A stretch of DNA of 64,000 nucleotides from Arcicella aurantiaca (lineage in GTDB: Bacteria > Bacteroidota > Bacteroidia > Cytophagales > Spirosomataceae): the NCBI RefSeq assembly GCF_003148625.1, contig NZ_QGGO01000032.1, forward strand, positions 1 to 64,000, read 5' to 3'. Under the pieces are notes generated by a model, which was not told the origin of the DNA, made no database searches, and saw nothing but the letters and a program-made list of their open reading frames with translations. This document shows, piece after piece, positions 29,244 through 54,173 of this stretch; positions within the stretch are counted from its first letter, which is position 1, and each line of letters opens with the position of its first letter. The position numbers and the translations under genes are program-made.

Positions 29244-29963
29244 TCAAAATAATGTCCCAAATATGCGGCTGGAGATTCTTTTATCATCCAACATAACTTC
29301 TGCTGAACCTTGAAGTAGCGGTTGAATTGGCAATGTTTTACCAACGTTGGTTATTAAACCGTTAGTTAATTTTACGTTAGCCCGATAATAATTATCAATT
29401 GAGACAGGTACCATTTCGGTAATTTCACCTTCTAAAAACCCAAATTCATCTTGCGGATAAGCGTCTAATTTTACTAAAACTCTCTGTCCTTTTTTTACTT
29501 TCCCAGCTCCATGAACTGGCAAACGAAGCTGCACTTCATAATTAGACACTTTGGGTACAACCAACAACATCCAAGCTTTGGGTTTATTCTCCACTCCTTT
29601 TAATAAGTAAGTTCTGCCTGATACCTTTGCTGTGATAGGCGTAATTATATTTGTTTTTTGGTCATTTTCAATCACGAGCGTATCGCCAACAATTACATTT
29701 TGAGCATCTTTTACTTTCGACTCATAGCTAATTTCGGGGTCAGTGGTGTACCACGTAATTTTCTGAGGCTGTTCTCGTGCGTTGATGAGTGCTTTGGCAG
29801 TAAGTGTATCGGGATATTGTATCATTACGGAAGTCATCAGAATGATAGCCAAAGCTATAAAAATGATAGAAACTCCCCATCTGATAACCCAATGAGGTAC
29901 ATAGCCAATGATTTCTTGCATTTCATCGCTACGTTCAGGAATATGTAAGACTGATTCGGGCAT
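29244..29963 (-). CDS. HlyD-like membrane-fusion protein 1
   Basis: A 239-residue periplasmic adaptor: a short cytoplasmic N-terminus, one membrane helix (about 28-48), then a beta-rich domain with DTLVIENDQKTNIITPITAKVSGRTYLL (lipoyl-like half) and GKVKKGQRVLVKLDAYPQDEFGFLEG, a typical HlyD-family strand pattern. No long coiled-coil hairpin, so it is a short version. It pairs with the C39-ABC exporter upstream (30336-32591), the last genes of the RiPP locus. No outer-membrane TolC channel is encoded nearby. Confidence 0.85.
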   Translation of the reverse strand: MPESVLHIPERSDEMQEIIGYVPHWVIRWGVSIIFIALAIILMTSVMIQYPDTLTAKALINAREQPQKITWYTTDPEISYESKVKDAQNVIVGDTLVIENDQKTNIITPITAKVSGRTYLLKGVENKPKAWMLLVVPKVSNYEVQLRLPVHGAGKVKKGQRVLVKLDAYPQDEFGFLEGEITEMVPVSIDNYYRANVKLTNGLITNVGKTLPIQPLLQGSAEVMLDDKRISSRIFGTLF

Positions 29964-29974
29964 GGTTTTTTTTA

Positions 29975-30335
29975 TTTTAGAGAATAGAGGTTAGAGAATA
30001 GTGAATAGAGAATAGTGAATAGAGAATAGTGAATAGTGGTTAGAGGATAGATGATAGTGAATAGAGAATAGTGGTTAGAGGATAGATGATAGTGAATAGA
30101 GAATAGTGGTTAGAGGATAAAATTACTGACCTATAAATATTTAGTATCTGCACTCTATAATCTGCACTCTATAATCTGCACTCTATAATCTGCACTCTAT
30201 AATCTATTCTCTATTCTCTATCATCTATCATCTATTCTCTATCATCTATTCTCTATCATCTATTCTCTATAACCTATTCTCTATCATCTATTCTCTATCA
30301 TCTATCATCTATCATCTATTCTCTATCATCTATCC
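29975..30335. repeat. two-armed simple repeat (GAATAGTG / CACTCTATAATCTG / CTATTCTC)
   Basis: The left arm (about 29985-30118) repeats TAGAGAATAGTGAATAG-type units. The right arm (about 30150-30335) repeats CTGCACTCTATAAT then CTATTCTCTATCAT, largely complementary to the left. The long hairpin or slippage-prone DNA separates the exporter gene from its HlyD gene, with no coding potential. Confidence 0.85.
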
Positions 30336-32591
30336 TCACGCTGCTAATTCTAATTGATTTTTTACTAATTCAAAGTAAAATCCTTTATTGGAAGTCAACT
30401 GTTTATGCGTTCCTACTTCTTTGATTTCACCGTTTTCAAGTACAATAATTTGGTCAGCATTTTTTACGGTGCTGAGGCGATGAGCAATCACTACAACGGT
30501 TCTACCTTTGAAGAATTGGTCGAGATTTTCCATAATTACACGTTCATTATTAGCATCTAATGCACTTGTGGCTTCATCAAAGAATATATATTTAGGATTT
30601 TTATATACTGCACGGGCTATAAAAACTCTTTGACGTTGTCCTCCACTTAGTCCAGCACCTGCATTACCAATTTTTGTTGCAAAACCTAATGGCAATTTCT
30701 TGATATATTCTTGCAAATTAGCCACTCTTACCGCTTCTAAAAGACGATTTTCGTCCATTTTCTGACCATCCACAGCGATATTTCGGGCAATAGTATCTGA
30801 GAAAATATAACCATCTTGCATTACAGTTCCACATTCGTTTCGCCAGCCTTTTGCAGAAATGTCAAGTATATTTGAGTCATTCACAAAAATATCTCCTTCG
30901 GCAAGACCATAGAATTTCAGTAGTAATTTCAGCAATGTTGTTTTGCCAGAACCACTTGTTCCCACAATTGCGGTTACTTTCCCTTCAGGAATCATTATGT
31001 TGAGGTTTTTCAAAATCAATGGCGATTGTGGTCCTCCGTAGCGGAATGATACATTTTTTAGGGTGATGCCCTTGCAATTTCCCTTCAACTGATTGGTATT
31101 ATCTAAAATCCCATTCAGTTTTCCCAAACAATGTTCTTCTTCTAATTCTTCATTGGGTTTATTATGAATTTCGCCGAGGCGTTCTAAACTAATTTTAGCA
31201 TCTTGGATACTTCGCATAAAAGACATTAACTGACTTAATGGCCCATTCATTTGTCCGATGATATACGAAATACTAAGCATTACACCCAATGAGATTTTAT
31301 TATCAATCACCTGTGTAGCAGCCACATACGAAATCAAAATATTTTTAAGTTGGGTAAAAAACGTTGACCCCATTTCTTGATATTGTTCAAGAGCCAGACT
31401 TTTAATATTAATCTTGAAAAGTTTTGCTTGAATACGCTCCCAATCCCATCTACGAGCTTTTTCGCAGTTATTCAGTTTTATTTCCTGCATACCCGTAATG
31501 AGTTCATAGACACTATTTTGGTTTTCACGCATTCGTTGAAAGCGGTTATAATCTAAATCTTTTCGTCGTTTTAGAAAAATGGCAATCCATAAGATAGACA
31601 AAGTGCTACCAACTGCAAATATTCCCAACAATGTGGTACTATAAATACCAAGTACAATTGAAAAAACAAAAAGATTAATGATTGAAAAGAAGGTATTAAG
31701 TGTTGTACCTGTCAAAAATGTTTCGATGCGATGATGGTCTTGGATTCGTTGTGAAATATCTCCAATATTTTTAGTTTCGTAGAAATTGATAGGCAATTTC
31801 ATCAGTTTTACCAAGAAATTAGAAATAATGGTAACACTGACACGGGTACTTATGTGTAGTAAAATCCAGTTTCGAATCATGTCCACTGCTACACCACCAA
31901 GAAATAAAAGTAGTTGCGAAATCAGGATTAGATGTATAAAACTAACATTATGACGATGAATTCCAAAATCTATAAGACTTTGGGTGAGAAATGGGAAAAT
32001 CATACTTAGAATACTCCCAAAAATCATTCCCAGCAAAATCTGAAATAGATATTTTTTATACGGTTTTAGATAATCAAACAAAAAATTGAAGCCTACTTTT
32101 TGGGGAGGACTATCCTCTCCTCTATCCATAAAGTCTGGAGTTGGTTCAAGTAAAAGGGCAATCCCTTTTTTCCCGCCTTCGCCAGTCCAACATTTCATAA
32201 AGGTTTCTGTATCAACAATCACCAAGTCATGTCCGGGGTCTGCTATAATAAATTTTTCTCCTTTGCTCACCCAAGGCAAAAATGACCAAAAACTTTTATG
32301 AATATCATATAATACTACAAAATGTTCTTGATTCCAATGTAAAATGGCAGGCAGAGGGGCTTCTTCAAGTATCTGTCTGATGGAGAGCTTCACTTTTAAT
32401 GTTCTGAAGCCTATCTTCTCGGCAGCTTCACTGATACCAGTCAGGCTAACTCCCGACCGTTGTATATAGGAGTTTGCTCGAAGATAATCAATGGAATAAT
32501 CTTTACCATGATAAGCGGCTACCATTTTTAAGCAAGTAGGGCCACAGTCCATGAAGTCAAGTTGCCTATAATATTTAAACTTGCTTTTCAT
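30336..32591 (-). CDS. C39-peptidase-containing ABC exporter 1
   Basis: A 751-residue bacteriocin-type exporter with three parts. The N-terminal C39 peptidase (about 1-140) has Cys16 (MDCGPTCL), a His in LHWNQEHFVVLY and an Asp in IIADPGHD; it cuts after double-glycine leaders. A six-helix membrane domain follows (about 165-460). The C-terminal ATPase has GTSGSGKTT, LSGGQRQR and IFFDEATSALDAN. It would remove leaders and export peptides to the periplasm. It is about 50-60% alike by eye to exporter 2 at 42104, so each may serve a different precursor type. Confidence 0.93.
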   Translation of the reverse strand: MKSKFKYYRQLDFMDCGPTCLKMVAAYHGKDYSIDYLRANSYIQRSGVSLTGISEAAEKIGFRTLKVKLSIRQILEEAPLPAILHWNQEHFVVLYDIHKSFWSFLPWVSKGEKFIIADPGHDLVIVDTETFMKCWTGEGGKKGIALLLEPTPDFMDRGEDSPPQKVGFNFLFDYLKPYKKYLFQILLGMIFGSILSMIFPFLTQSLIDFGIHRHNVSFIHLILISQLLLFLGGVAVDMIRNWILLHISTRVSVTIISNFLVKLMKLPINFYETKNIGDISQRIQDHHRIETFLTGTTLNTFFSIINLFVFSIVLGIYSTTLLGIFAVGSTLSILWIAIFLKRRKDLDYNRFQRMRENQNSVYELITGMQEIKLNNCEKARRWDWERIQAKLFKINIKSLALEQYQEMGSTFFTQLKNILISYVAATQVIDNKISLGVMLSISYIIGQMNGPLSQLMSFMRSIQDAKISLERLGEIHNKPNEELEEEHCLGKLNGILDNTNQLKGNCKGITLKNVSFRYGGPQSPLILKNLNIMIPEGKVTAIVGTSGSGKTTLLKLLLKFYGLAEGDIFVNDSNILDISAKGWRNECGTVMQDGYIFSDTIARNIAVDGQKMDENRLLEAVRVANLQEYIKKLPLGFATKIGNAGAGLSGGQRQRVFIARAVYKNPKYIFFDEATSALDANNERVIMENLDQFFKGRTVVVIAHRLSTVKNADQIIVLENGEIKEVGTHKQLTSNKGFYFELVKNQLELAA

Positions 32592-32623
32592 ATTTTTAAG
32601 ATTTGTAAGATATTTAAAAAATT

Positions 32624-32797
32624 AGACTTCCTGCGAAAGTGTTTTATGATTGAAAAATGGTATATTTTCGAGTGAAAATAGCGGGAATTTTGAAAGCAAA
32701 GCAGAGAAATGGGGGGATGCCCAATCTTGAAAAATTTTCGCTATTTGTAGCCGAAAAGATGTTGTTTTACGACTTAAAACACTTTCGCAGGAAGTCT
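32624..32797. mobile_element. MITE-like element, copy 2 (174 bp)
   Basis: Same 23-bp ends and nearly the same interior as copy 1 but inverted relative to it, flanked by ATT triplets (32621-32623 and 32798-32800). It lies between the exporter 1 start and the S9 protease stop inside the RiPP locus, so it is transcribed with it and could form a strong RNA hairpin there. Confidence 0.85.
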
Positions 32798-32807: not shown

Positions 32808-35255
32808 CTATTTTCCTTCCGACTGAACCTCTTGGGGTTTCATATATTTATTCATCCACTGATTCATCTCCCAAAGCGTATGTAAAATGGATTCTTTAGC
32901 TGTATAACCATGACTTTCAAGTGGTAGTAAAACAAAACGAGTTGTTCCGCCATGCCCTTTGATGGCATTGTAAAGTCGTTCGCTTTGCAAAGGAAATGTT
33001 CCTGCATTATTGTCAGCCTCTCCATGAATTATCAAAAGCGGATTTTTGATTTTGTTGGCTGCATTAAAGGGAGACATCTTTGCATAAATCTCTGGCACTT
33101 CCCACATAGTCCTCTCTTCCGACTGAAAACCAAAAGGGGTCAAGGTACGGTTGTACGCACCACTTCGTGCAATACCAACGGCGAATAAACTGGTATGAGC
33201 CAATAAATTGGCCGTCATAAAAGCCCCATAAGAATGTCCGCCGATGGCAATTCTATTTTTATCAGCAATTCCCTTACTGACTAATTCATTGACCAAAGCT
33301 TCCGCTCCAGATTTCAGTTGTTCAATATAAGTATCATTGGGTTGCTTGTCGCCCTCACCAATAATGGGTAAATCGGGGTCGTCCACAACAGCATATCCTT
33401 GCGTAAGCCAATACATGGGGCCTGTCCATCCAATACGAGTAAACAAATACGGAGAATCTTTTACCTGTCCTACATTATTGGCATTTTTATACTCACGTGG
33501 GTATGCCCAAATGAGCGTAGGTAATGCTCCTTTTTGGGCTGAATATCCTACTGGAAAATAAACCTTTGCTGTCAATTTTACACCATCTGCTCGTTGATAT
33601 TGCAATAGTTCTTTTTTTACGTCTTTCATGTGAGGATAAGGATGACTAAAAAAAGTCAATTGTCGTTCAGATTTTTCATCAAGATTTTTCACAAAATAAT
33701 TAGAAGGCACTGTTGTAGATTCTTTTCGAGTCAGGATAACATTTTTAGTCATATCTAAAACATCAATGGGCATTTCGTAAAATGGTGCTTCCGAACGCCA
33801 AATTTCATTGACAGAGTTATCGATTAAACTTACTTCTCTTACAAATGGTCTTTTTCCTTCAGGTGAAGAACCTTCACCCATGAAAATTATTTTTTTGGTT
33901 TGTTCCTTTACCAATAAAACCTCTCTGCCTGCTTTATTATAAGCAACAATTGGATAACCTGGGTCTTTGTACAAATCTTCGGTATTGATGTCGAAAATAA
34001 CTTTTCCCTTCTGGTTTTCGAGTGATGGATTTATCTTTATCATTCGCTGTGTGCGGTTTTTCCACCAGCCATCCACCAAGATAGCCAGTGTGTCATTTCC
34101 CCAGCTCGACCACCTATAACGCCCTGATAACGAAGCCATTAATTTAGGTTCAACAAACGGTGTTGTTAGTGAAAAAATCTTATCTCGTACTTCTACTTTT
34201 TTATTAGGGTCTCCTTCATCTTGAGCTTCTACGTATATAATGGTTTCGGGGGCATCTGCACGCCATTCTACGCTACGCATACCAGTACGCACTGCGTCAT
34301 TACCAATAGGAACACTCTCAGAAAGCGGTATATCTGCCAATGATTTTATAAATCTTCCTGAAATATCATTTAAATTAATTTCTTTGGGAAAATTACTATA
34401 AGGCACTAAATACGAATAAGGCTTCTTTAAAACGGTATTGATGATATATTTTCCGTTGGGAGAAAGCGAAAAACTCGTTAAGATTTTATTACTCAAAAGC
34501 GTCTGAAGCTCCCCTTTTAAAGATATTTTCACTAAATCAGTTGATAAGTGATAGTCGAAAAGGGATTCATCATAAGCATTTTTCAATAAGTCTTGATACG
34601 TGCGAGCAGGAGCTTTTTTACCTAAATTTTCTTGAATGGTTGGTCCAGTTGGCACTAAATTTTTCTTAGCCAAAATTTGGCGATTTTTTGTAATCGTTTT
34701 TACCAAAAGATAATCACTCGTAGGCGACCATTGAAAAGGCTCGCCCGACAACACATCATTGATATTATCTAACATTTTTTGAGTTGTACCTTTTTCAGCA
34801 TCGGCAATCCAAAGTTCTAACTTTTCATTTTTCACTAAAACAAAAGCGAACATTTTACCATCTGGCGACCACCGTAAATCAGTGAATGAACCTGCTGGAA
34901 AATCTTTCAAAACTCGCTCGTTTAATGATGTCATTTCTTTCATTTTCAACCCAATAAAGGTTGAGACTCTACTTTGTCCATTATTGAGTGGATTTATTCT
35001 AAGACCCGCAATTTTAAGTTCTGGCTGTGCCATTTCCTCGATAGTTGGTAGAGGAGACCGTTCCAAAAACAAAATAAAATCGTTATTCGGTGAAATATTA
35101 ACCGTAGGTGTTAAAGGAGCCATTAGTATATCAGTCATTTCTTTAGGGGGCATTTGATAAGACTGATTATCTTGGGCAAAAAGTGGCTGACCGACAAGTA
35201 TTATTCCTGCCCAAATAGCCCCAAAAAAGATTGACATATTGCGTGATGTTTTCAT
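32808..35255 (-). CDS. secreted S9 family peptidase, glutamyl endopeptidase-like
   Basis: An 815-residue prolyl-oligopeptidase-fold protein starting at the ATG at 35255, which gives a signal sequence (about residues 1-28, ending LFAQ) and avoids overlap with the HlyD gene; a start 8 codons earlier is possible. A beta-propeller comes first, then the catalytic domain with Ser675 (GGHSYGAF), Asp748 (GEADNN) and His782 (ESHGY). The stretch ARSGAYNRTLTPFGFQSE is, from memory, strongly like plant chloroplast glutamyl endopeptidase (S9D). Within a lanthipeptide locus whose cores carry Glu-rich linkers, it may make a second maturation cut after Glu. That role is inferred. Confidence 0.85.
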   Translation of the reverse strand: MKTSRNMSIFFGAIWAGIILVGQPLFAQDNQSYQMPPKEMTDILMAPLTPTVNISPNNDFILFLERSPLPTIEEMAQPELKIAGLRINPLNNGQSRVSTFIGLKMKEMTSLNERVLKDFPAGSFTDLRWSPDGKMFAFVLVKNEKLELWIADAEKGTTQKMLDNINDVLSGEPFQWSPTSDYLLVKTITKNRQILAKKNLVPTGPTIQENLGKKAPARTYQDLLKNAYDESLFDYHLSTDLVKISLKGELQTLLSNKILTSFSLSPNGKYIINTVLKKPYSYLVPYSNFPKEINLNDISGRFIKSLADIPLSESVPIGNDAVRTGMRSVEWRADAPETIIYVEAQDEGDPNKKVEVRDKIFSLTTPFVEPKLMASLSGRYRWSSWGNDTLAILVDGWWKNRTQRMIKINPSLENQKGKVIFDINTEDLYKDPGYPIVAYNKAGREVLLVKEQTKKIIFMGEGSSPEGKRPFVREVSLIDNSVNEIWRSEAPFYEMPIDVLDMTKNVILTRKESTTVPSNYFVKNLDEKSERQLTFFSHPYPHMKDVKKELLQYQRADGVKLTAKVYFPVGYSAQKGALPTLIWAYPREYKNANNVGQVKDSPYLFTRIGWTGPMYWLTQGYAVVDDPDLPIIGEGDKQPNDTYIEQLKSGAEALVNELVSKGIADKNRIAIGGHSYGAFMTANLLAHTSLFAVGIARSGAYNRTLTPFGFQSEERTMWEVPEIYAKMSPFNAANKIKNPLLIIHGEADNNAGTFPLQSERLYNAIKGHGGTTRFVLLPLESHGYTAKESILHTLWEMNQWMNKYMKPQEVQSEGK

Positions 35256-35265
35256 AGCTTTTAGT

Positions 35266-35982
35266 TTAGATGATGTCAAAAATACGTTTCAGAAGACTTT
35301 TTTCATTTGTCAATATTTCCGCTTTCCCTTTAAGTTTCATTGGAAGAGTGATTTTTTTGCCATTTTGAGTTTGTAATCCATTAGTTAAATTAATGGCTAC
35401 GTCATAAGTATTATCTTCAATTGACGGTGAAATGGTTTGTACGCTACCTTCAATAACGCCAAACTCTCGATATGGAAACGCATCTAATTTTAGGATTACT
35501 TTATGTCCAATTTCCACTTTCCCGATTCCTTCAATCGGCAATTTCCCATTGACGAGATGTTGCTGATTTTTGGGAATAATAAAGCCTATTTCTATTTTAT
35601 CTTTTTGTATTTCGATGTTTTCAGGAATACTTTTTAAGTAAAAAATACCTGTTATTGGTGCTTTGATTACTTCAACGAATTGTTTATTTATCTGTTTGGC
35701 ACATAAAAAAAGTGGCTGTCCTGCATGAACGAGAACTTTGTCTTTAACCAAAACTTGTGAAATTTCTATGTCCGCCTCTCTATTAATGGGTACGGGTTTT
35801 TCCTTACTCAAAACCCAAATATTGGTTTCTACAATATCTGGATAATGAATAAAGTGTGTTCCTGTCAAAATGAGAACAACAATGACTAAAAGTATGGTTA
35901 TTCCCCAACGTGTAATCCATTTGGGAGTGCGTTGCATAATATCATGAAACTCCTCACTTCGTACCTCTAAATGACTGGGCAT
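35266..35982 (-). CDS. HlyD-like membrane-fusion protein 2
   Basis: A 238-residue adaptor with one membrane helix (about 28-48), a lipoyl-like segment ending APITGIFYLKSIP, and GIGKVEIGHKVILKLDAFPYREFGVIEG, directly comparable to adaptor 1. It lies 12 bases downstream of lanB and immediately upstream of the S9 protease gene. It presumably couples one of the two C39-ABC exporters to an outer-membrane channel encoded elsewhere. Confidence 0.85.
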   Translation of the reverse strand: MPSHLEVRSEEFHDIMQRTPKWITRWGITILLVIVVLILTGTHFIHYPDIVETNIWVLSKEKPVPINREADIEISQVLVKDKVLVHAGQPLFLCAKQINKQFVEVIKAPITGIFYLKSIPENIEIQKDKIEIGFIIPKNQQHLVNGKLPIEGIGKVEIGHKVILKLDAFPYREFGVIEGSVQTISPSIEDNTYDVAINLTNGLQTQNGKKITLPMKLKGKAEILTNEKSLLKRIFDII

Positions 35983-39198: not shown

Positions 39199-39231
39199 AG
39201 TTTTAACGATGATTTTGAGGGATTTTTTAAT

Positions 39232-39386
39232 AGACTTCTTGCGAAAGTGTTTTATGATTGAAAAATGGTATATTTTCGAGTGACCATAGCAGGCATTTTG
39301 AAAGCATAGCTACGGTTGAAAAAACCTCGCTATTGGTAGCCGAAAAGATGTTGTTTTATCACTTAAAACACTTTCGCAAGAAGTCT
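39232..39386. mobile_element. MITE-like element, copy 3 (155 bp, shortened)
   Basis: Ends AGACTTCTTGCGAAAGTGTT, same orientation as copy 2, with about 19 bases lost from the middle and a changed centre. Flanks are AAT and CAT, so no intact target duplication remains. It lies between the last precursor gene and lanB. Confidence 0.85.
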
Positions 39387-39693: not shown

Positions 39694-39719
39694 TGTAAAT
39701 AGTTTTGAGAATGAAATGG

Positions 39720-39914: not shown

Positions 39915-39941
39915 AGTAAAATAGTTTTAAAGTGATTTTTT

Positions 39942-40142: not shown

Positions 40143-40172
40143 TGTAAAATAATTTTTAGAAGTGAAATTTTA

Positions 40173-40509: not shown

Positions 40510-40535
40510 GGTATAAAAAATTAAGAGGTAAAAGA

Positions 40536-44301: not shown

Positions 44302-45231
44302 TTAGTTTTGATTGAGTTTAAAAATATCACTTATTAGTTCGATACCCATCATACGGTCTTGAGATTTCATAGCGGCACTCATAAAAATGATTTCATCTAT
44401 TCCGTACTGCTCTTTGAGTGTCATCACTTGGTCTTGAAACTTAGCAGGGCTTCCAAAAATATCTCCTTTTCCAACAGCCGTTTTGGTATTAAGAAAATCA
44501 AGAATTTTTTTTGCTTTCTGAGATGTTTTATGACAACACCCTGCAATGGCTAAGGTCATCTTTGGCACTACTCCATAGCGTTGAAAATAATCTTCTCTGA
44601 ACTTAGCTAAACGTTCTTTTTCGTAGGATACATCTGAACCAGCATGAAAAATAGAACGAGCAAAATTAGTGCGTAGTTTTAAGGCTCTATCTAAACTTCC
44701 ATAGGATACTCCCAAAGTCCAAATTTCTGGTATTTCACCTTTATACGGAGGAATGACAATCCCCTTTCCTTCGTTAAATAATTCGTCCTCATCTTGTAAA
44801 TAATGGACTAATTCTTCTAATTTACTATCAAAAGTGCTTCTTAAAATTTGATTGGTATCTTTGATGGCGGCTTGTGCAATTTTCTCACCAACAACCCCAT
44901 TTGCAAGCCCTAAATCAATTCTTCCTGGAAATAAATTGGCTAATAATTTAAAATTTAAAGCTACATGATAGGGATTATGAATACTCAATAAAATACCTGC
45001 TACACCGATTTTGATACGGTTGGTCATCCCTGCTAAAATAGGTAAAAGCGTTTCGGGATTAGACCATGCCGCTCGTGTATTGGCAACATGATGTTCTGCT
45101 ACCCACAAGCGACTAAAACCTAATTTATCAGCATGATTGGCATATTCAATTAAGTCTTCTATTACATGAAGACTATTCATTTTGGTATCACGAAGACCAA
45201 AGTCAAGCAGTCCGATTTTAATATTTTCCAT
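44302..45231 (-). CDS. LLM-class flavin-dependent oxidoreductase, MsnO8-like
   Basis: A 309-residue luciferase-like TIM-barrel protein: LWVAEHHVANTRAAWSNPE near 43-61, RIKIGVAGILLSIHNPYHVA, FPGRIDLGLANG and ending FMSAAMKSQDR. The AEHH motif is usual for FMN-linked luciferase-like proteins of the MsnO8 type. It is 8-12 bases from the exporter 2 and LanC genes, hence co-transcribed. Related F420-dependent luciferase-like enzymes (LanJC) reduce dehydroalanine to D-alanine in other lanthipeptides, so a reductive or oxidative tailoring role is a reasonable guess, with FMN more likely than F420 here. Confidence 0.85.
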   Translation of the reverse strand: MENIKIGLLDFGLRDTKMNSLHVIEDLIEYANHADKLGFSRLWVAEHHVANTRAAWSNPETLLPILAGMTNRIKIGVAGILLSIHNPYHVALNFKLLANLFPGRIDLGLANGVVGEKIAQAAIKDTNQILRSTFDSKLEELVHYLQDEDELFNEGKGIVIPPYKGEIPEIWTLGVSYGSLDRALKLRTNFARSIFHAGSDVSYEKERLAKFREDYFQRYGVVPKMTLAIAGCCHKTSQKAKKILDFLNTKTAVGKGDIFGSPAKFQDQVMTLKEQYGIDEIIFMSAAMKSQDRMMGIELISDIFKLNQN

Positions 45232-45243: not shown

Positions 45244-46461
45244 TTATGATAATAAAAAGACACTGTCCCACTTCAAATCTTCTTCACTTACCGCAGAAAT
45301 TAATCCTAATGAAATACCTACAAAGCCTTCTAAAAGTTCTCCTGCGTGCGACCTAAAGAGGGGGTCTGTGGTTTCTTTTTCAAGAAATTGTAAGGTTCTT
45401 TCTATCCAATAATAATATCCTTCTTCATAAATGGGTAAAGCAGTCATTTCGTAAAAACGTTTGTAGTATTGAGCCATTCCGATTGACCCATGACAAATAT
45501 GACTGTCTATTACGATGGTCTCTTTTCTATTTTTTCGTTCAATGGTATTACATCCTACTTCATCTGCAATATCTGCCCATTCTGGTACACCAAACTGCTT
45601 TGAGGCTGTATAAAGCAATAGTATTTCGTTTAAATCACCATAACACCAACCTAACCTCGAACCGTATTCTTCTATATTTTTATCAGAATTCCAAGGCTCT
45701 TTTTCATTAATTGTTAGAGGAAAAAACGAGTATTTTCCCGTAGCAAAATCTTGTGGTGTTTTGTAAGAAAGGATAAAATTGATTCCTCCTGATACTATTT
45801 CTTCTATTTGAGTCTTACAAATACCTTTTGCATGAATTTTCAGAAGAATCATTAATATTCCACAGAGTCCATGTGCCAGCCCTAAATTGATATTGTCTGA
45901 TTCATTCAGGCGAGCAATATGCGAGTTCTCAAAACGAACACCTCTCGAATCTCTGATGGCAGTCTTTGACAATGTTTCGACCAAAATTTCAAGGTATTTC
46001 TCTACTTTTGGATTAGACAAACGGCGACTCAAATATAATAAAACACCCAAAGAGCCATGTAAATAATCGGTATTTCGTTTTACTACATCTTCTAACGTTT
46101 TTGTATATACGATGTCATCAAACTCACACAATTGCTCATCAAAATTAATGTCAATAATTCCTTCATCTTTCAGTAGCGAAAGAACATAGCCAAACCCAGA
46201 GAGTCCATAAGAAAAGGCTGGTTTTAATAAATATGGTGATTTATGAGTATCCATATTATGTAAGATAGTCTCAATCAATTCCACGCCTTTATCAGCATAT
46301 TTTTCGTCTTCAAAGTATCTGAACATATAGAAGTAGTATAAAATCTGCCCTATTCTACCCGAAAAAAGGGTGTCGTTTTTGGGTTCTGTTACTTCAATAA
46401 TATTCAGTAGTTTTTTGACTTGTAAATCTATTAATTCTTTTTCAATCGTGAGGGTTTTCAT
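45244..46461 (-). CDS. lanthionine synthetase LanC, zinc ligands complete
   Basis: A 405-residue alpha/alpha-barrel cyclase. The zinc ligands are Cys273 (GWCYGDL), Cys323 and His324 (HICHGSIG). The His in GLAHGLCG (His197) and repeated GxxG motifs (SYGLSGFG, LHGSLGV) fit the family. It would add precursor Cys thiols to dehydro residues made by LanB. It is the only one of the two LanC proteins here with a complete metal site. It is co-directional with and 12 bases from both neighbours. Confidence 0.93.
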   Translation of the reverse strand: MKTLTIEKELIDLQVKKLLNIIEVTEPKNDTLFSGRIGQILYYFYMFRYFEDEKYADKGVELIETILHNMDTHKSPYLLKPAFSYGLSGFGYVLSLLKDEGIIDINFDEQLCEFDDIVYTKTLEDVVKRNTDYLHGSLGVLLYLSRRLSNPKVEKYLEILVETLSKTAIRDSRGVRFENSHIARLNESDNINLGLAHGLCGILMILLKIHAKGICKTQIEEIVSGGINFILSYKTPQDFATGKYSFFPLTINEKEPWNSDKNIEEYGSRLGWCYGDLNEILLLYTASKQFGVPEWADIADEVGCNTIERKNRKETIVIDSHICHGSIGMAQYYKRFYEMTALPIYEEGYYYWIERTLQFLEKETTDPLFRSHAGELLEGFVGISLGLISAVSEEDLKWDSVFLLS

Positions 46462-46473: not shown

Positions 46474-47658
46474 TTAAAGCATCCAAATCAATTCATCAAA
46501 GCAATAGTTTTCCCTATCAAAATATTTTATCAAAGTACAGCCAATTCCTGTAATACCTTCCATAAAAGCGATATTGGTATGTTTGAAGTGTTGATTAAAA
46601 TTACCTTTAAATCCAGCCGTAGCGTTTTCATGAACAGCAAAATCTGTTATTTTTTTGTACCAATCGGTAGCAGTATCATAAAACAGAGTAATACCAGTCA
46701 TTTCATAAATTTTATCGAATATCAAAGCAACACCCGAGGCTCCATACAAAATACCCGCATCCTTAATTCCAGCTTTTGGGAAGTCATTACGGGTGGCACA
46801 ATTTTTAAATATTTGGATAGATTCAGAACTTAATCGTTCGTTTTGCAACAACTCTCCTACTCTCAAAAGAGCGTAAGCCACTCCCATATCACCATAACAT
46901 AAACCCAATGAAGTACGACCGTTTTCGTCTCCTACAATATCAGGGAAATGATAACCCTTTGCTACAAAATCAAGTTTTTTACTCAACAAGTATTCGGTAG
47001 AACTCAATAACATTTTTTTTACAAGTGTAGGTTGAATTCCCATTTCGTACATTTTGCATAAATATGTTATTACGATAGCGAGTCCATGAGAAATTCCTAA
47101 ATAAATATTATTCTTATCAAATAGTTTAGAAACCCAATAGGTATTATTCTGTGCATCTGTATGGGCAATCAGATTTAACCACAAAGTGATTTTTTCAAGA
47201 ATGGGTTCAACATCCGCTTTAGAATTACTGCGTGCCACAAAATACATTCCAGCCATCAATCCTCCTGTATAAGGGTCAAAATCTTCGGTTTTCATCGCTT
47301 TTTCAAGGACTTCTTCCATGATTTTGTCAATTCCCAAAAGGATTGCATTTGTATCTATTTCAATGATATTATTGGTCTTGGCGTATTCCAAAAATATTCC
47401 AATTTCTGCCAATTCTTTATAAAAACTTCGTCCTTCATAAGGCTCAGTTATTTTTTTGATAGAAGCTGATAAAATCTTCCCTGCCCAATCGTTATACTTA
47501 TTATTTTCGGTGAATGCTCCATAATAGGTAAAGAATAGTACTTTGCCAATCAGTCCGTTGGTATAGCCAAATGTTGAAAGTTTATTTTCTGGTAGGGTCA
47601 AACATTCGGCTATTTTATCAAGGCATAGTACTGCCTTCTCTTCGAGTAGCATTTCCAT
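46474..47658 (-). CDS. LanC-like protein lacking two of three zinc ligands
   Basis: A 394-residue LanC-fold protein. The first ligand is kept (Cys254 in GLCYGDMG) and so is His191 (GISHGLAI), but the Cys-His pair is replaced by Leu304-Tyr305 in AGILYGASG. Without these it should not activate thiols by zinc. It may be a non-catalytic partner of the neighbouring LanC, a substrate-binding subunit, or act on another chemistry. Open frame, length and other GxxG motifs are intact, so it is not simply a pseudogene. Confidence 0.88.
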   Translation of the reverse strand: MEMLLEEKAVLCLDKIAECLTLPENKLSTFGYTNGLIGKVLFFTYYGAFTENNKYNDWAGKILSASIKKITEPYEGRSFYKELAEIGIFLEYAKTNNIIEIDTNAILLGIDKIMEEVLEKAMKTEDFDPYTGGLMAGMYFVARSNSKADVEPILEKITLWLNLIAHTDAQNNTYWVSKLFDKNNIYLGISHGLAIVITYLCKMYEMGIQPTLVKKMLLSSTEYLLSKKLDFVAKGYHFPDIVGDENGRTSLGLCYGDMGVAYALLRVGELLQNERLSSESIQIFKNCATRNDFPKAGIKDAGILYGASGVALIFDKIYEMTGITLFYDTATDWYKKITDFAVHENATAGFKGNFNQHFKHTNIAFMEGITGIGCTLIKYFDRENYCFDELIWML

Positions 47659-47699: not shown

Positions 47700-50150
47700 C
47701 TAATGATTGATACGACTTTGAACTTCATCGCTTCCAGAGTTTCGTTGACGAGTTGAGAGTTTTTTATTCCCAAATTTGTAGGTCAATGTCAGTCTGACCA
47801 ATCGAGTATCGGCATAATTGCTCCCTTCTATGTTCTGAGTTGCCGATAATGTTCGGTAGGTATATTGTCTGCTCCAAAAAATATCGTTTAGGTTTAGTTT
47901 TAGGCTTCCTTGTTTCTTCCAAATGCTTTTCTGAAAACTTACATTCATATAAAAGCGAGGTAATTGAGTATTGGTAGCCACGATATACTGCCCTAAATAA
48001 TTGACATATACATCCATTTTATAGCCTTTGGGTAGTGCAATATTATGTGTAGAGTTGAAATAATATCCAGAAGAAGCTATATCCAGTTTATTTCCTAAGA
48101 AATTATTATCTGTTACTTTTCCAACGCTTCCATAAATATTATTACTGGTTTGCCACCATTTTGTAATGGCTACTTGAAAATTCACATTCAAACCATAGTC
48201 TGTTGACTTTGCCAAATTACCGATGAAGTGCCTAACCACTTTTGTCGAAGGAATCTGCTCGGTAGTCTCGTACATCATATCATTAGTTACGGAATAATCA
48301 AACGTGGTTGTGATTTTTCCTGCATAGGTATGTGTCAATGAAAAGTTATACGACTTAGAAGGATTCAAATTCGGATTTCCCTGACTGTACGTGTACTGGT
48401 CTGTATAAAAAGTCAGTGGATTCATCTGGTCGTAACTTGGTCGGGTAATGTCCCTTCTGAATGCAAAAGCCAATTGATGATTTTCAGACAAATTGGTTTC
48501 GGCTAAAAAATTAGGGAACAAATTGGTATAGTCTTTCTTCGTAAAACTCTGAGTAGAATATGAGTTCAATTCAATATTTGTATTTTCTACTCGTAAACCT
48601 GTTTGGATTTGCCATTTGCCCACAGATTTAGCAAAAGTCACATAAGCTGCATTAATATTTTCTTTATAGACAAAATTATCGTTTCGTTTGGTGTCAGGCT
48701 CCCACATTCCATTTTCTTTCGTTTGTAAATCTACAAGAATTAAGTTATTGGCGGTTACAAATGAACTCTTTGCTCCTGCTTCCATCTTCAAGGATTGATT
48801 AATGGCTTGAGTATAGTCAATTTTGTAGGTATTAAATTCTGTAATATAGGAAGGTCTGTTCCGCAATCCTTGTCTAAAATTAGATGCTTCAGACTGCGGA
48901 GGGATTCTCATTCGTCCCAAAAAAAGGGCATCACTACTATAATTATCCTTTCCATAATCAATATTAATTTCTAACTCTTTACCATTAGAATCTAAAGTAC
49001 CTTTATAGTTTAAGTTATAAGTTCGGAAATCTTCTTTCATGGTTGAAGTAGAGATGGTTTCTAAGGTAGAATCTCTCAATGACACACTCTTCCTAAAATC
49101 AGTGGTAGCATATTTTTCATTATCTCCTCCATAAATACTCCCATCTACCGAAAGTCCAAGAACATGGTTGGCGGCAAGATTATAGTCAAAACCCAATTTA
49201 TAACTATGGCTTCTGCTACTACTCTCATTTTTTGAATCTGTGTATAGTGAATACAAAGAACTATTTATTGGGAAACGGCTATCTTGCCAAGAAATTCGCT
49301 GACTTTTATTGAAGGATTGATTATAATTAGCAAAGAAATTAAATTTACCTTCTTTAAAATTAAAATTGCCCCCACCTGTATATTTTGTATAAATGCTTTG
49401 GCTCAATCCTAAGTTTACGTTTCCATTAAATCCCTGATTTACTCCTTTCTTTAATTTAATGTCAATTACTGCTCCCGCAAAAGAATCATATTTGGCAGAA
49501 GGCTGTGTAATAAGCTCAATCTTAGCAATATTATCAGACTTTAGACTTTTGAGAAAATTATTCAAGCCTTCTCCCGATAGTTGTATTTGCTTACCATCTA
49601 CCATAATCATTGTCGTTTTTCCTTGTAAACTTACACTCCCGTTATCTCCTACCAACACGCCAGGGGCTCTTTCAAGCACTTCCAATGATGTACTCCCTGC
49701 TCCTACTACACTATTCTCAACATTCAATACAAAGCGGTCTATCTGCCGTTCCACCAAGGGTTTGTTACCAACCACTTTCACTTCATTTAATACTTTCGAC
49801 TCTGTGTTCAGCGATATTTTTCCTAAATCAACCTCTTTTCCATCTCCTTGAATTACAAAAGATGGACTATAAAACTGCTGATACCCAATAAAACTAATTT
49901 TGATTAAGTATGAGCCTTTCATTATATTTTCAAAAACAAATGCTCCATTGCCGTCAGCCATTACACCCTTCAACATAGAAGAGTCTTTGCTTTGTAGTAT
50001 CAACACATTCGCAAAACCAACTGTATTCTCAGAATTACTTTCTTTAATTGTTCCTAAAACTCGTGTATTGTCTTGAGCATACAATCTGACCAAGCTTGAC
50101 ATCGTGATTACAAATATCATCACGATATAATATTTATAGTTCCTCTCCAT
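47700..50150 (-). CDS. outer-membrane beta-barrel receptor with carboxypeptidase-regulatory N-domain
   Basis: An 816-residue protein with a signal peptide (about 1-25, ending RLYAQ). A CarboxypepD_reg-like domain comes next (about 28-112), then a TonB-receptor-like plug (about 120-235, with LEVLERAPGVLVGDNGSVSL and VIDIKLKKG) and a 22-strand-type barrel. Such proteins in Bacteroidota import or bind ligands at the outer membrane with TonB. Within the RiPP locus it could take the modified peptide back in, sense it, export it or give immunity. It is 12 bases downstream of the small peptide gene at 50163. Confidence 0.87.
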   Translation of the reverse strand: MERNYKYYIVMIFVITMSSLVRLYAQDNTRVLGTIKESNSENTVGFANVLILQSKDSSMLKGVMADGNGAFVFENIMKGSYLIKISFIGYQQFYSPSFVIQGDGKEVDLGKISLNTESKVLNEVKVVGNKPLVERQIDRFVLNVENSVVGAGSTSLEVLERAPGVLVGDNGSVSLQGKTTMIMVDGKQIQLSGEGLNNFLKSLKSDNIAKIELITQPSAKYDSFAGAVIDIKLKKGVNQGFNGNVNLGLSQSIYTKYTGGGNFNFKEGKFNFFANYNQSFNKSQRISWQDSRFPINSSLYSLYTDSKNESSSRSHSYKLGFDYNLAANHVLGLSVDGSIYGGDNEKYATTDFRKSVSLRDSTLETISTSTMKEDFRTYNLNYKGTLDSNGKELEINIDYGKDNYSSDALFLGRMRIPPQSEASNFRQGLRNRPSYITEFNTYKIDYTQAINQSLKMEAGAKSSFVTANNLILVDLQTKENGMWEPDTKRNDNFVYKENINAAYVTFAKSVGKWQIQTGLRVENTNIELNSYSTQSFTKKDYTNLFPNFLAETNLSENHQLAFAFRRDITRPSYDQMNPLTFYTDQYTYSQGNPNLNPSKSYNFSLTHTYAGKITTTFDYSVTNDMMYETTEQIPSTKVVRHFIGNLAKSTDYGLNVNFQVAITKWWQTSNNIYGSVGKVTDNNFLGNKLDIASSGYYFNSTHNIALPKGYKMDVYVNYLGQYIVATNTQLPRFYMNVSFQKSIWKKQGSLKLNLNDIFWSRQYTYRTLSATQNIEGSNYADTRLVRLTLTYKFGNKKLSTRQRNSGSDEVQSRINH

Positions 50151-50162: not shown

Positions 50163-50348
50163 TTAAATGTCTCTATTTATATTTTTCAAAATATTTCTCT
50201 CTTGTTCTTCTGATGGTTTAACCAATGGACGACCACCCAATACAGCCTCCATTTCTTCAAGGCTAAGTTGCCCAAAGCTACGATTCTCCCCTTCTGTCAA
50301 GGATATTTTTTTTCTATTTGAAGAAAGTATTTTGCTAAAAAAATTCAT
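50163..50348 (-). CDS. GG-leader peptide linked to the radical SAM gene (C)
   Basis: A 61-residue peptide. The leader-like part ends FGQLSLEEMEAVLGG, a typical Bacteroidota GG leader (LSxEEMxxVLGG). The putative core after GG has 23 residues, is Lys/Glu/Arg-rich, and lacks Cys and aromatic residues. The gene overlaps the end of the radical SAM gene by 14 bases, implying translational coupling. It may be a substrate, a leader-only partner, or a binding protein. No family name is assigned. Confidence 0.65.
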   Translation of the reverse strand: MNFFSKILSSNRKKISLTEGENRSFGQLSLEEMEAVLGGRPLVKPSEEQERNILKNINRDI

Positions 50349-51519
50349 TTCCTTTTATATTTTTATTTGACGAATAAATGAGGAGATACTCCACACGGAT
50401 ACTGATATAATGTATTAATCTTTCTAAATCTTTACAATAAATGGAAGGATTATTAAACCCATTTTTAGCATCATAACGGTGAGTAATAAATCCACCATTG
50501 CATACTTCTACTACTGAACAATTTTGACATTGCCCACATAAGGTTTCCTGACTATCAATACAAAATTTAATGAGTGGGTGCTTGAATGAATCTTCTAAGG
50601 CGTGATTGCTAATATTCATGTTGGTCTTGGTAAAGCCATTTCCACAGGCTTTCAGACTGTCTTGCGGTTCAATATCTCCGTTGGTTTCAATGATTAGGTT
50701 AATGTTTTTTCCTCCTCCGAGGTATTCAAAATCTCCTTCTCCTCCCAAAATTTTGTTTAATATCTGATTGAAAAACGTTATTTGAGGTTTATCTCTGTCT
50801 TGGTCTTCAAACCAATTATCAAATAACTTAATGAGCCAATCAGCAAAAATTGTTTGTTCTAATTCAAAACCTGTCGGTAAATTATCATGTGTTCCGTCGG
50901 GCAAAAGAAAATTAATATGCCTGATTTTCAACGACTTATATTTCTTATATAAATCATCTGGATTAATATTCGGATTGATAACAGATAATATTCCGGGTAA
51001 ATATTTTAAATGTTTAGAGGTCTGAGCATTGGCAATTCCTTGTAAAGTGGCTGATAATGAGCTTCTGCCATGATGGTCTAATCGAAAACGGTTAGCCTCT
51101 TCAGAAAGTCCATCTAAACTAATACCGATTCTAATTCCCAAACTTCCCAATACTTTACACCATTCGTCGCTTAATAATACTCCATTCGTCTGAATAGTAT
51201 AAATTATTTGGATTGAAGCGGGGAGTAATTCATTGGCTTTTCTAACAAAATTTTGGTAAAAGTCATAACCTACCAATAATGGTTCTCCTCCATGAAAAAT
51301 AAAAGCAAATGTTTTACTCCCGCTCTCTGTCAAATAGGTTTTTACTCGCATCAATAAGTGAATAACCACTTCTTGACTCATAACTTTTGGTTGAGATTTA
51401 TACGTTTTATCTCCCAAATTATACATATAACAATATTCACAATTCAAATTACAACGACTGGCAACTTTCAAAACTAAACCTCTGATTATCACCTTTGTTT
51501 TCATTTGATTTTCTTTCAA
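50335..51519 (-). CDS. radical SAM/SPASM peptide maturase
   Basis: A 394-residue enzyme. The radical SAM cluster is Cys23-x3-Cys27-x2-Cys30 (CNLNCEYC), GGEPLL follows, and the SPASM-type C-terminus has Cys in KACGNG, LCGQCQNCSVVEVCNGG and YCKDL. The segment ending ITHRYDAKNGFNNPSIYC resembles FxsB and related three-residue-cyclophane-forming maturases. It is flanked by three short GG-leader peptides, its likely substrates, 8 bases downstream of one and overlapping another. It probably installs C-C or thioether crosslinks; the exact reaction is unknown. Confidence 0.88.
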   Translation of the reverse strand: MKENQMKTKVIIRGLVLKVASRCNLNCEYCYMYNLGDKTYKSQPKVMSQEVVIHLLMRVKTYLTESGSKTFAFIFHGGEPLLVGYDFYQNFVRKANELLPASIQIIYTIQTNGVLLSDEWCKVLGSLGIRIGISLDGLSEEANRFRLDHHGRSSLSATLQGIANAQTSKHLKYLPGILSVINPNINPDDLYKKYKSLKIRHINFLLPDGTHDNLPTGFELEQTIFADWLIKLFDNWFEDQDRDKPQITFFNQILNKILGGEGDFEYLGGGKNINLIIETNGDIEPQDSLKACGNGFTKTNMNISNHALEDSFKHPLIKFCIDSQETLCGQCQNCSVVEVCNGGFITHRYDAKNGFNNPSIYCKDLERLIHYISIRVEYLLIYSSNKNIKGNEFF

Positions 51520-51527
51520 TTATTACA

Positions 51528-51737
51528 TCAAATAATTTCGTTTGGTCCTTGATAGGAAGCATTTATTTGAGACGACACCTCTTGTCTGATAAAAAAACCA
51601 CCTCCATTAATATCATCTATTTTGCCTCCTAATACTTCATCAGCGTCAATTCGACCTTCATGTTCATCCAATTGTTGAAGTGCTTTTTTCTGTTTTTTCT
51701 TGTCACTTCTGGCAATGGTAAATATTTTCTTAATCAT
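51528..51737 (-). CDS. GG-leader peptide linked to the radical SAM gene (B)
   Basis: A 69-residue peptide. A basic N-terminus (MIKKIFTIARSDKKKQKK) is followed by DADEVLGGKIDDINGGG, offering two possible Gly cut sites, and a core ending FFIRQEVSSQINASYQGPNE plus II. Aromatic residues near Arg, Asn and Gln would be candidate crosslinking sites for a cyclophane-type maturase. It sits 13 bases after peptide A and 8 before the radical SAM gene. Confidence 0.7.
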   Translation of the reverse strand: MIKKIFTIARSDKKKQKKALQQLDEHEGRIDADEVLGGKIDDINGGGFFIRQEVSSQINASYQGPNEII

Positions 51738-51750: not shown

Positions 51751-51954
51751 TTAAGTGTTCAATAAAACTGAAGGGAAAAACCATTTTGTCTGTCCATCAA
51801 GTTCAGACTCATACATTGGAGTATAATCTTTGTCACCTCCTCGTACTTCTTGGGCTGCGTCGTCATTGACCATTTCAATTTCTGAATCTAAAAACAGTTG
51901 TGAATCAGATTTTAAGTTAATTTTTTCAAAAAAAGTGCTTAATGTCTTTTTCAT
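51751..51954 (-). CDS. GG-leader peptide linked to the radical SAM gene (A)
   Basis: A 67-residue peptide, first gene of the long RiPP transcript. The leader ends DDAAQEVRGG, and the core is DKDYTPMYESELDGQTKW followed by FFPSVLLNT: no Cys, several aromatic residues. A -7 promoter box lies 26 bases upstream and the 21-bp-phased repeats lie beyond it. It is probably a substrate of the radical SAM enzyme, exported by one of the C39 transporters. Confidence 0.7.
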   Translation of the reverse strand: MKKTLSTFFEKINLKSDSQLFLDSEIEMVNDDAAQEVRGGDKDYTPMYESELDGQTKWFFPSVLLNT

Positions 51955-51987: not shown

Positions 51988-52016
51988 TTAGAATCAATAA
52001 AATTTGTTTATTTTTT

Positions 52017-52070
52017 CCGATAAACAACATTGTTTTTCCGACAAACGACATTTCATAGTCGGCAAACAAC
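52017..52070 (-). promoter_or_regulatory. three direct repeats at 21-bp period, candidate LytTR operator
   Basis: On the - strand the 12-mers GTTGTTTGCCGA (52070-52059), GTCGTTTGTCGG (52049-52038) and GTTGTTTATCGG (52028-52017) recur at exactly 21 bp, each followed by a 9-base AT-rich spacer. Direct repeats about two helical turns apart are the known binding mode of LytTR regulators, and a LytTR gene starts 2 kb upstream. The proximal repeat ends 29 bases before the -7 box. Confidence 0.7.
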
Positions 52071-52080: not shown

Positions 52081-52197
52081 TTATAGAAAAAGACATAATT
52101 TTGATGAACTCGTACTTTGATGAGCATTCTTTTTGTCATAATTAAAAACTGTAACTACGTTTTTAATTACGACTAAGTTTGTATAAAGCTTTTTCAT
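52081..52197 (-). CDS. candidate 38-residue peptide gene
   Basis: An open frame beginning MKKLYTNLVV and ending HQSTSSSKLCLFL, lying between the two operator-like sites and about 50 bases downstream of a second promoter-like sequence (52247-52256). It has one Cys near a Ser/Thr cluster but no GG motif. It may be chance; its position in a regulated interval is the only real support. Confidence 0.3.
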   Translation of the reverse strand: MKKLYTNLVVIKNVVTVFNYDKKNAHQSTSSSKLCLFL

Positions 52198-52316: not shown

Positions 52317-52346
52317 ATTAACTAATCGACGAATGATTGCAATATT

Positions 52347-53453
52347 CTACGCCAAAGTAACAGACAACATAATTTGATGTTTATTAGGGTCTGCAATAAC
52401 CTGAAGACTATAACGATTGGGGTATAAAGAATTTAAACGTTTTTGGACATTTATTAAACCAATTCCTCCTAAACTATTCTTTTGTTTTTGAGATAGCTTA
52501 CGGACTTTACTATTGATAACTCCCAAAAATAGGGTGTTACTTTCTACTCTAATTTTAATATGAACGTAACTCTGAATAGTTGAATCTCCTATTCCATGTT
52601 TAAAAGCATTTTCGATAAAAGCAATCAAAATAAGCGGGGCTATAACTCCTGTTAAGTCTCCCTCAATTTCCAATTTCACTTGTACTTTTGATGAATTTCT
52701 GATTTGTTCCAGAGCTACAAAATCCTTGAGAAAAGCTACTTCTTTCTCAACACTTACCGTAGATAAAGAACTTTCGTATAATACATAATCCAAAAGATTG
52801 GATAGAGACAAAATAGCATCAGGGCTTCTTTGGTCTCCTATTACAACTAAACTGTAAATATTATTAAGTGTATTGACTAAGAAATGAGGATTAATTTGAA
52901 GACGCAAAAAGTCTATCTCTAATTGTTTTTTTTCTGAAAGAACCTTCGCAAATATTCTAACAAATTTTAAGAAAAAAGCAGGTAAAGCGGTAAATATAAG
53001 TTGAATTGTATCTGTAATAATATTAATTATATCAAAATAAGACCAAAAGTTGGATTCGTACACATTATGATAAATTTCATATATTCTTTTGTTTTGCGGA
53101 GTAATCCAATGGTTTTCTATCACAATAACTACTCTTAAATAAGTCTCTAAAGACATGAAAAAATAGAATGCGATAATTGCAGAACAAATAACAATTACTC
53201 TAAACCAACCTATGTATTGAGCATATAAGTAAGGAATAAAATAGTTGAATAAATAAAAAAATGTGCTACTGGTAAGGGTAAAAGAGAATGCTCCTATTAA
53301 ACGAATAATAAGTGAATCAGATGGAAAACCTGTACCAAATAGCAGAGAGATAAAAAAAAATCCCCAAAAAATAGCATGAAGTATTATCCTCCGCTTGAAG
53401 GGTACGTGGTCAATAGGATACAGGCGAAGTAAGTAATCAGCTAAACGTTCCAT
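52347..53453 (-). CDS. LytS-like sensor histidine kinase (His_kinase family)
   Basis: A 368-residue kinase with four hydrophobic helices in the first 165 residues (about 24-40, 50-75, 84-103 and 143-165), a short linker, the His_kinase domain with His190 in LQINPHFLVNTLNNIYSLV, and a HATPase region (IAFIENAFKHGIG, then GGIGLINVQKRL). It is 9 bases downstream of the LytTR gene, so they form a pair. In this position it probably senses the peptide, envelope stress or nutrients to control the RiPP genes. Confidence 0.9.
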   Translation of the reverse strand: MERLADYLLRLYPIDHVPFKRRIILHAIFWGFFFISLLFGTGFPSDSLIIRLIGAFSFTLTSSTFFYLFNYFIPYLYAQYIGWFRVIVICSAIIAFYFFMSLETYLRVVIVIENHWITPQNKRIYEIYHNVYESNFWSYFDIINIITDTIQLIFTALPAFFLKFVRIFAKVLSEKKQLEIDFLRLQINPHFLVNTLNNIYSLVVIGDQRSPDAILSLSNLLDYVLYESSLSTVSVEKEVAFLKDFVALEQIRNSSKVQVKLEIEGDLTGVIAPLILIAFIENAFKHGIGDSTIQSYVHIKIRVESNTLFLGVINSKVRKLSQKQKNSLGGIGLINVQKRLNSLYPNRYSLQVIADPNKHQIMLSVTLA

Positions 53454-53462
53454 TACGAATCA

Positions 53463-54173
53463 TTAATTTATAGCTTTAAACCGAGAAATAAAGGCTGTCT
53501 TAAATGCCCTTCCAAGTGTAATTTCTTTTTTATCGTTCATGATTACAAGGCTATTAGCACTATCTATTGAATCAATTTTATCTGAATTGATGATAAACGA
53601 TTTATGAACTCTGATAAAATTGGTAGCTGGCAACGTTTCTATTATTTTAGTCAAGGTTGATAAAGTCACAATTGAGCGTTCTTTGGTTATAATTTTTATA
53701 TAATCTCCCAAACCTTCAATATAAAGTATATCGGCAAATTCTATTTTTATCATTCTCCCAGATTCTTTAACATACATGGCTATCGAGACGGGGTTTTCTT
53801 CTGAAAAACTATTCCCATATAGCCGTTGGACTTTCTCGACAGATTTCTTGAATCGGTCAAATGAAACGGGTTTCTTTAAATAATCAATGGCGTCCAGTTC
53901 AAACCCTTCAAGGGCAAAGTTAGGATAAGCAGTAATGATAATTACGTGTGGTTTTGGCGAAAGCATTCGGATAAAATCTAAGCCCGAAAGTCGAGGCATT
54001 TCGATGTCTGTAAAAATCAAATCTATGGCATTATCTTCCAGAAAATCAGAGGCTTCCAGTGCATTATCAAATACTTCCACTAATTCTAATTCAGGAAGAC
54101 GATTAAAATAGTTTCGCATTAAATTTTGTGCAGGTTCTTCGTCTTCAAGAACAATACATCTAATTTTTTTCAT
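53463..54173 (-). CDS. LytTR family response regulator of the RiPP locus
   Basis: A 236-residue regulator. Receiver domain with Asp11 and phospho-acceptor Asp56 (LIFTDIEMP), and Lys in YLKKPVSF. The LytTR DNA-binding domain (about 130-232) has KIEFADILYIEGLGDYIKI and FIRVHKSFIINSDKID. First gene of a regulator-kinase pair at the promoter end of the RiPP locus. The 21-bp-phased repeats between the pair and the first peptide gene are its likely binding sites. Confidence 0.92.
   Translation of the reverse strand: MKKIRCIVLEDEEPAQNLMRNYFNRLPELELVEVFDNALEASDFLEDNAIDLIFTDIEMPRLSGLDFIRMLSPKPHVIIITAYPNFALEGFELDAIDYLKKPVSFDRFKKSVEKVQRLYGNSFSEENPVSIAMYVKESGRMIKIEFADILYIEGLGDYIKIITKERSIVTLSTLTKIIETLPATNFIRVHKSFIINSDKIDSIDSANSLVIMNDKKEITLGRAFKTAFISRFKAIN

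Follow-up and report, generated by a model that had tools for sequence, protein, structure and literature searches.

The window, a stretch of 64,000 nucleotides from Arcicella aurantiaca (contig NZ_QGGO01000032.1), carries a RiPP locus on the minus strand between positions 29244 and 54173. All genes that an earlier note had listed for this region, read from the letters alone, were confirmed, with Pfam and NCBIfam matches as given in Table 1. The set is co-directional. From pep3 to the gene of a 327-aa protein, via rSAM, pep1, the outer-membrane gene, LanC2, LanC1, the luciferase-like oxidoreductase (LLM) and exporter 1, the intergenic distances are -14 to 41 bp. Larger gaps of 130-372 bp, which could hold other promoters, precede preA6, LanB, exporter 2 and HlyD2 and also occur within the preA genes.

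Table 1. Features of the RiPP locus in reading order of the minus strand, with the alternative cassette of a congener (G002) in the last line
Feature	Position	Strand	Evidence or remark
LytTR response regulator (frame)	53463..54173	-	Pfam LytTR 3e-21, Response_reg 6e-18
LytS-type histidine kinase (frame)	52347..53453	-	Pfam His_kinase 7e-21; LytS also matched
LanA2, 38-aa candidate LanB substrate without GG, MKKLYTNLVVIKNVVTVFNYDKKNAHQSTSSSKLCLFL	52081..52197	-	
Putative LytTR box, two direct repeats, 21-bp period	52012..52052	-	tandem repeat, regex and PWM scans
pep3, GG peptide, core DKDYTPMYESELDGQTKWFFPSVLLNT	51751..51954	-	GGDK[DE]-YTP-type core in frames
pep2, GG peptide, predicted rSAM substrate, F-I-R triad	51528..51737	-	
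Radical SAM/SPASM maturase (rSAM), YhhB/FxsB-like	50335..51519	-	Pfam Radical_SAM, NCBIfam, Cys motifs
pep1, GG peptide linked to outer-membrane gene	50163..50348	-	
Outer-membrane beta-barrel protein (OMP), cassette start	47700..50150	-	Pfam OMP_b-brl_3 1.5e-95
LanC2, a LanC-like protein without the second and third zinc ligand	46474..47658	-	
LanC1, cyclase with C/C/H zinc ligands	45244..46461	-	
Luciferase-like oxidoreductase (LLM, MsnO8 family)	44302..45231	-	Bac_luciferase; TIGR03558 169.6 vs cut-off 166.95 bits
C39-ABC exporter 1 (cassette)	42104..44293	-	Pfam
327-aa helical protein, no known family	41101..42084	-	
Six class I lanthipeptide precursors (preA)	39487..40970	-	NF038153 above cut-off in 6/6
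Individual precursors	39487-39693, 39720-39914, 39942-40142, 40315-40509, 40536-40724, 40773-40970	-	
MITE-like inverted-repeat element, copy 1	39225..39395	-	~171 bp
LanB dehydratase, full length, 1067 aa	35995..39198	-	PF04738 3e-157, PF14028 6e-71
HlyD adaptor 1 (cassette)	35266..35982	-	HlyD_3; TIGR01843 below cut-off
S9 prolyl-oligopeptidase family protease	32808..35279	-	Pfam
MITE-like element, copy 2	32623..32797	-	
C39-ABC exporter 2 (frame)	30336..32591	-	Pfam; adjoins rSAM in many frames
HlyD adaptor 2 (frame)	29244..29963	-	TIGR01843 below cut-off; 82-84% identical in G035, G002
Alternative cassette of G002 (L022/L023)	G002:C76:7434-28935		

The description as a lanthipeptide set joined to a radical SAM set holds in that both are present, but the locus is better described as a conserved frame plus a cassette. 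The frame comprises LytTR/LytS, pep3, pep2, rSAM, C39 exporter 2 and HlyD2; in the window the cassette lies between the rSAM gene and exporter 2. Judged by gene order, the frame includes the C39/HlyD pair at 29244-32591, since it adjoins rSAM in many relatives. Three GG peptides had been listed with the rSAM enzyme; pep2 and pep3 are part of the frame. The third, pep1, belongs with the cassette and its outer-membrane gene; in one relative (G113) its counterpart precedes the OMP gene with no rSAM adjoining. The 327-aa protein had neither a Pfam or NCBIfam family nor a sequence relative in the PDB, and its single-sequence structure model (pLDDT 54) was too poor for a structure search. An Rfam search of the window gave no match. 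The MITE-like element of ~171 bp has terminal inverted repeats and dozens of copies in the genome; in the window it occurs at 25910-26091, 32623-32797, 39225-39395 and about 54271-54306, and copies 1 and 2 flank LanB-HlyD1-S9. An AT-rich minisatellite (29978-30337) with periods of 7/14/28/35/42 bp occupies the interval that separates exporter 2 from HlyD2.

Lanthipeptide enzymes and precursors

The cassette has the features of a class I lanthipeptide locus: a LanB with glutamylation and elimination domains on one ORF, a LanC with a C/C/H site and precursors that combine a class I leader with a core containing Ser/Thr and Cys. Two LANC_like Pfam matches (E 3e-38 and 5e-33) agree with the two LanC proteins announced earlier, but only LanC1 has the complete zinc site (C273, C323, H324), while LanC2 retains the first Cys only. 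This difference is conserved: among frame-linked proteins C/C/H was kept in 11/11 LanC1, whereas LanC2 lacked the His in 15/15 and the second Cys in 14/15 cases. Four loci (G009, G044, G045, G065) have a LanC2 without a LanC1 near the frame. The loss of ligands together with this solitary occurrence indicates that LanC2 is probably not a classical cyclase. The LLM oxidoreductase is a candidate dehydroamino-acid reductase. Like the LanJC luciferase-like reductases (birimositide, PMC7268733) it is a PF00296 enzyme in a lanthipeptide cluster; unlike these, it is an MsnO8-type LLM and its reaction is putative.

In the precursors the leader has the LxLxKx5L pattern known from Bacteroidetes LanAs (PMC7268733). 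A full-length LanB, a LanC, LxLxKx5L GG precursors and a C39 exporter are also features of Bacteroidota class I lanthipeptide clusters such as RuiABC of Runella limosa (PMC7268733, PMC9993889); in comparison to this cluster type, the window adds a zinc-less LanC, the LLM oxidoreductase and the cyclophane rSAM frame. The pinensin cluster is likewise a class I lanthipeptide cluster from Bacteroidota, however with the split LanB (PMC7268733) that characterizes the pinensin type, whereas the window locus has a single LanB of 1067 aa and an rSAM set. Bacteroidales regions with an rSAM gene and a LanC-like gene devoid of active-site residues (PMC10352776) resemble the locus in this pairing; those genomes have no LanB, whereas the window encodes precursors as well as LanB and a LanC1 of the catalytic type.

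A seventh candidate LanB substrate, the non-GG peptide LanA2, had been missed in the earlier reading. LanA2-like ORFs of 38-54 aa with a LanB-type leader and no GG follow LytTR/LytS in most frames. The leader model for class I lanthipeptides matched two of the relatives, one of them with a score exceeding the cut-off; the window LanA2 gave no match to the NCBIfam lanthipeptide leader model. Such peptides are possible LanB-modified signals. Similar ORFs were observed beside two other LytS genes of the window genome (L096 2510-2629, L109 2228-2362). The same genome has an orphan full-length LanB (L070, G000:C14:140218-143283) that is conserved in seven congeners (G001-G007); neither LanC nor precursor was found nearby in the eight examined genomes of the genus. 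A common clade of orphan and frame-adjacent LanBs was considered and rejected, as the LanB tree places the orphans in a clade of their own; that the orphan LanB serves LanA2 is thus a guess.

The maturase and its predicted substrate

The rSAM protein has the CxxxCxxC and SPASM-type Cys motifs. Its nearest curated families are YhhB (344.8 bits, cut-off 445) and FxsB (316.3 bits, cut-off 370), and it stays below both cut-offs. The triad [W/F]-x-[K/E/R/Q] was present in 21/21 distinct pep2 cores that otherwise differ widely; composition-shuffled cores had the triad in a mean of 8.0 and a maximum of 14 of 21. In a three-residue cyclophane an aromatic residue is joined to the residue two further on, and YhhB is reported to link Tyr and His to the C-beta of Arg (PMC11002830). 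The pep2 triad, F-I-R in the window and W-V-K in G035, fits this pattern. With the triceptide enzymes YhhB, FxsB and XncB (PMC11002830) the window enzyme shares the rSAM/SPASM sequence family and the aromatic-x-residue substrate motif. It differs from them in its scores below the curated cut-offs, in a third triad position of K/E/R/Q, and in two dedicated GG peptides, a C39 exporter and an attached lanthipeptide cassette.

Frame and cassette in related genomes

Relatives were collected by an rSAM search and their gene neighbourhoods were then read, the window genome being G000. This yielded 22 frames in 20 related genomes of 11 genera. pep2 was present in every frame, directly before rSAM in most and displaced in G113 and G405, and pep3 in all except G065. 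The earlier note had proposed to look for both sets together in related genomes: a LanB was found within 20 kb of rSAM in 19/22 frames and linked in 10/11 genera, the exceptions being G002 and both loci of G012. By chance we would expect a linkage of 1-2% per locus, a rough estimate of our own from about two LanB per genome of 6-8 Mb. LanB occurs in 59/149 genomes of this family and rSAM in 13, thus cassettes need no frame. A protein-based contig scan found only one distant rSAM, in Kordia, without frame, and a phylum-wide rSAM search gave seven other matches (39-43% identity), none with the pep2/pep3 frame; one of the seven (G571) has a split LanB nearby. Frame and cassette are also carried by the complete 98.5-kb plasmid unnamed8 of Spirosoma oryzicola (G423, NZ_CP089546.1). 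Its NCBI annotation lists LanB, two LanC, six class I lanthipeptides, the radical SAM protein and both exporters; pep2 and pep3 are labelled hypothetical. Several loci of the relatives have response regulators that resemble a receiver domain and, with 120-140 aa, leave no room for a LytTR domain (e.g., G035:C236:19716-20138, G012:C18:126202-126570, G044:C1:6037856-6038269); none was found in the window.

That relatives might carry only one set at this place, which would have spoken against one system, was observed once, in G002 of the same genus, with the rSAM frame alone. In G002 the locus is bordered by the same genes as in the window, of 182 aa and 354 aa on one side and of 224 aa on the other, and the LytTR regulator lies in the same position with 73% identity. 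Its pep2, pep3, rSAM, exporter 2 and HlyD2 are 66-84% identical to those of the window, LytS 54%. The lanthipeptide genes are replaced, between rSAM and exporter 2, by a cassette of fatty-acid/polyketide type with an arginase; it comprises ketosynthases, a ketoreductase, a FabA-like dehydratase, an AMP-ligase, a thioesterase, an acyl carrier protein, an arginase, an M50 peptidase and small VELEDRFETT peptides. The predicted product is possibly a lipid-bearing, ornithine-containing RiPP. Locus a of G012 has a similar cassette (G012:C18:44500-55700) and locus b further rSAM genes. Cys-rich GG peptides near a LanB were present in G089, G031 and G358; in G358 (NKGCPTTNTSC, L114/L115) no LanC accompanies them and a second rSAM/SPASM enzyme follows (L115 1114-2475).

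The identities of frame and cassette diverge. In G035 the frame proteins pep2, pep3, rSAM, exporter 2 and HlyD2 are 59-83% identical to the window, the cassette proteins 23-48%. In G423 the relation is the opposite: rSAM has 48% identity, but LanB 59%, exporter 1 80% and LLM 71%. The rSAM tree groups G000, G002 and G035 (support 100/100), whereas in the LanB tree G000 and G423 are sisters (98/97) and join G113 (100/100). AU tests rejected G000+G423 for rSAM (p 3e-9) and G000+G035 for LanB (p 5e-4); the groups were picked after the identities were known, thus the p-values are optimistic. The conflict of the trees indicates that frame and cassette recombine.

Direct repeats of the form TTGTCGGAA-n12-TTATCGGAA were recognized by eye upstream of pep3 and LanA2; the window box lies ~90 bp upstream of pep3. 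A regex search found 16 repeat pairs in 17 loci, with less than one expected in total, nearly all adjoining frame or cassette genes. A PWM scan yielded 54 box pairs against 6 expected, 13 of the 54 being the training set. With a hold-out PWM from frame sites only, a box preceded 8/22 separate lanthipeptide units and 2/336 controls (p 2e-9), the units being hand-picked and near-identical relatives (G009/G044, G180 a/b) not independent. The positives included OMP or preA genes in G044, G009, G045, G065, G180 (twice) and G423. Direct repeats ~21 bp apart upstream of target genes are the mark of a LytTR regulon, binding being putative here. The boxes before separate cassettes support a co-regulation. 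In the window the box before pep3 is the single strong one, so control of the cassette there would proceed by read-through. The proposal that both sets share regulation as one joined system thus gained support from co-direction, tiny gaps, the 19/22 linkage and the common box. Shared export fared less well: in the window a separate C39/HlyD pair accompanies each set. In G035, G069 and the G320-type loci, the sole exporter found in the neighbourhood of the two peptide sets was that of the frame, which makes sharing likely there.

Alternative readings and proposed function

The two sets might be independent RiPP clusters in a gene-acquisition island, their linkage reflecting a hot spot and not a function. 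LanB often occurs without frame, G002 has another cassette at the same site, the trees of frame and cassette disagree, and MITE-like copies and the AT-rich minisatellite mark a plastic locus. We consider independence unlikely, as 19/22 frames in 10 genera are LanB-linked in varied gene orders, gaps of -14 to 41 bp connect the sets in the window, and, in loci whose cassette forms a unit of its own, both sets have the shared regulatory box upstream. A closer union, in which LanB/LanC and the rSAM enzyme act on the same precursor, would suit the common operon, the common GG leaders and the presence of both enzyme kinds in one locus. Landornamide-type peptides, which combine lanthionines with other modifications, are a precedent. 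However, pep2 and pep3 lack the LxLxKx5L leader of the six precursors, and the triad of all pep2 cores is mostly missing from the lanthipeptide cores: even a looser pattern that also allows Tyr matched only 4/46 preA-type cores. Different leaders and core motifs make separate substrates likelier than one doubly modified peptide, which is highly improbable; the suggestion that both chemistries meet on one peptide is therefore not favoured. Lanthipeptides and cyclophane peptides as partner peptides are possible.

The rSAM peptides, and LanA2, may instead be signals controlling the cassette and not effectors, which is compatible with a modular locus. They directly follow LytTR/LytS in most frames, boxes often lie upstream of LanA2 and pep3, LanA2-like ORFs accompany two other LytS genes of the window genome, and the frame is retained while the cassette changes. 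Then again, LytS/LytTR pairs are common, with 23 LytS matches in the window genome, and pep2 and pep3 have a dedicated exporter, as bacteriocins also have. We regard a signalling role as possible, though less than probable. Rather doubtful is a general peptide-signalling and export platform, in which varied cassettes (lanthipeptide, rSAM-type, fatty-acid/arginase-type) would be slotted under one LytTR switch. Its peptides would be a cyclophane, a companion and a small dehydrated LanA2, with LanB acting locally or, as orphan, in trans, and the cassettes would deliver a peptide or a lipopeptide.

The reading we hold probable is a modular RiPP locus, i.e. a conserved cyclophane-type rSAM frame with an exchangeable cassette, here a class I lanthipeptide set. 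Gene content, linkage, the swapping of frame and cassette and the conservation of motif and box are established at the sequence level. In the proposed working of this modular locus, LytS/LytTR would bind the 21-bp direct repeats and switch on the pep3 operon, and read-through would activate the cassette. The rSAM enzyme would crosslink the F-I-R triad of pep2 to a three-residue cyclophane. LanB would dehydrate Ser/Thr of the six precursors and LanC1 close the lanthionine rings, the zinc-less LanC2 being a partner that does not itself catalyse, while the LLM enzyme would reduce some dehydro residues. Cleavage at GG and the export of both peptide families would fall to the C39 exporters, giving a mixed peptide output that probably would serve competition between bacteria.

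In the open-access literature we found no paper on a combination of LanB and cyclophane rSAM sets in Cytophagales. Taken by itself, the lanthipeptide half is ordinary; the unusual feature is a cyclophane frame that stays fixed while its cassettes are exchangeable, apparently under a common switch. Its recurrence suggests a recurring modular system rather than a chance neighbourhood. The locus offers a defined set of predicted substrates for a putative cyclophane maturase that falls outside the curated families, and it seems to place two RiPP chemistries under one switch. It raises the questions of how exporters and peptides pair, of the role of a conserved zinc-less LanC and of LanB-type peptides as signals. 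Cassette exchange is suggested as a route by which these bacteria vary their peptides.
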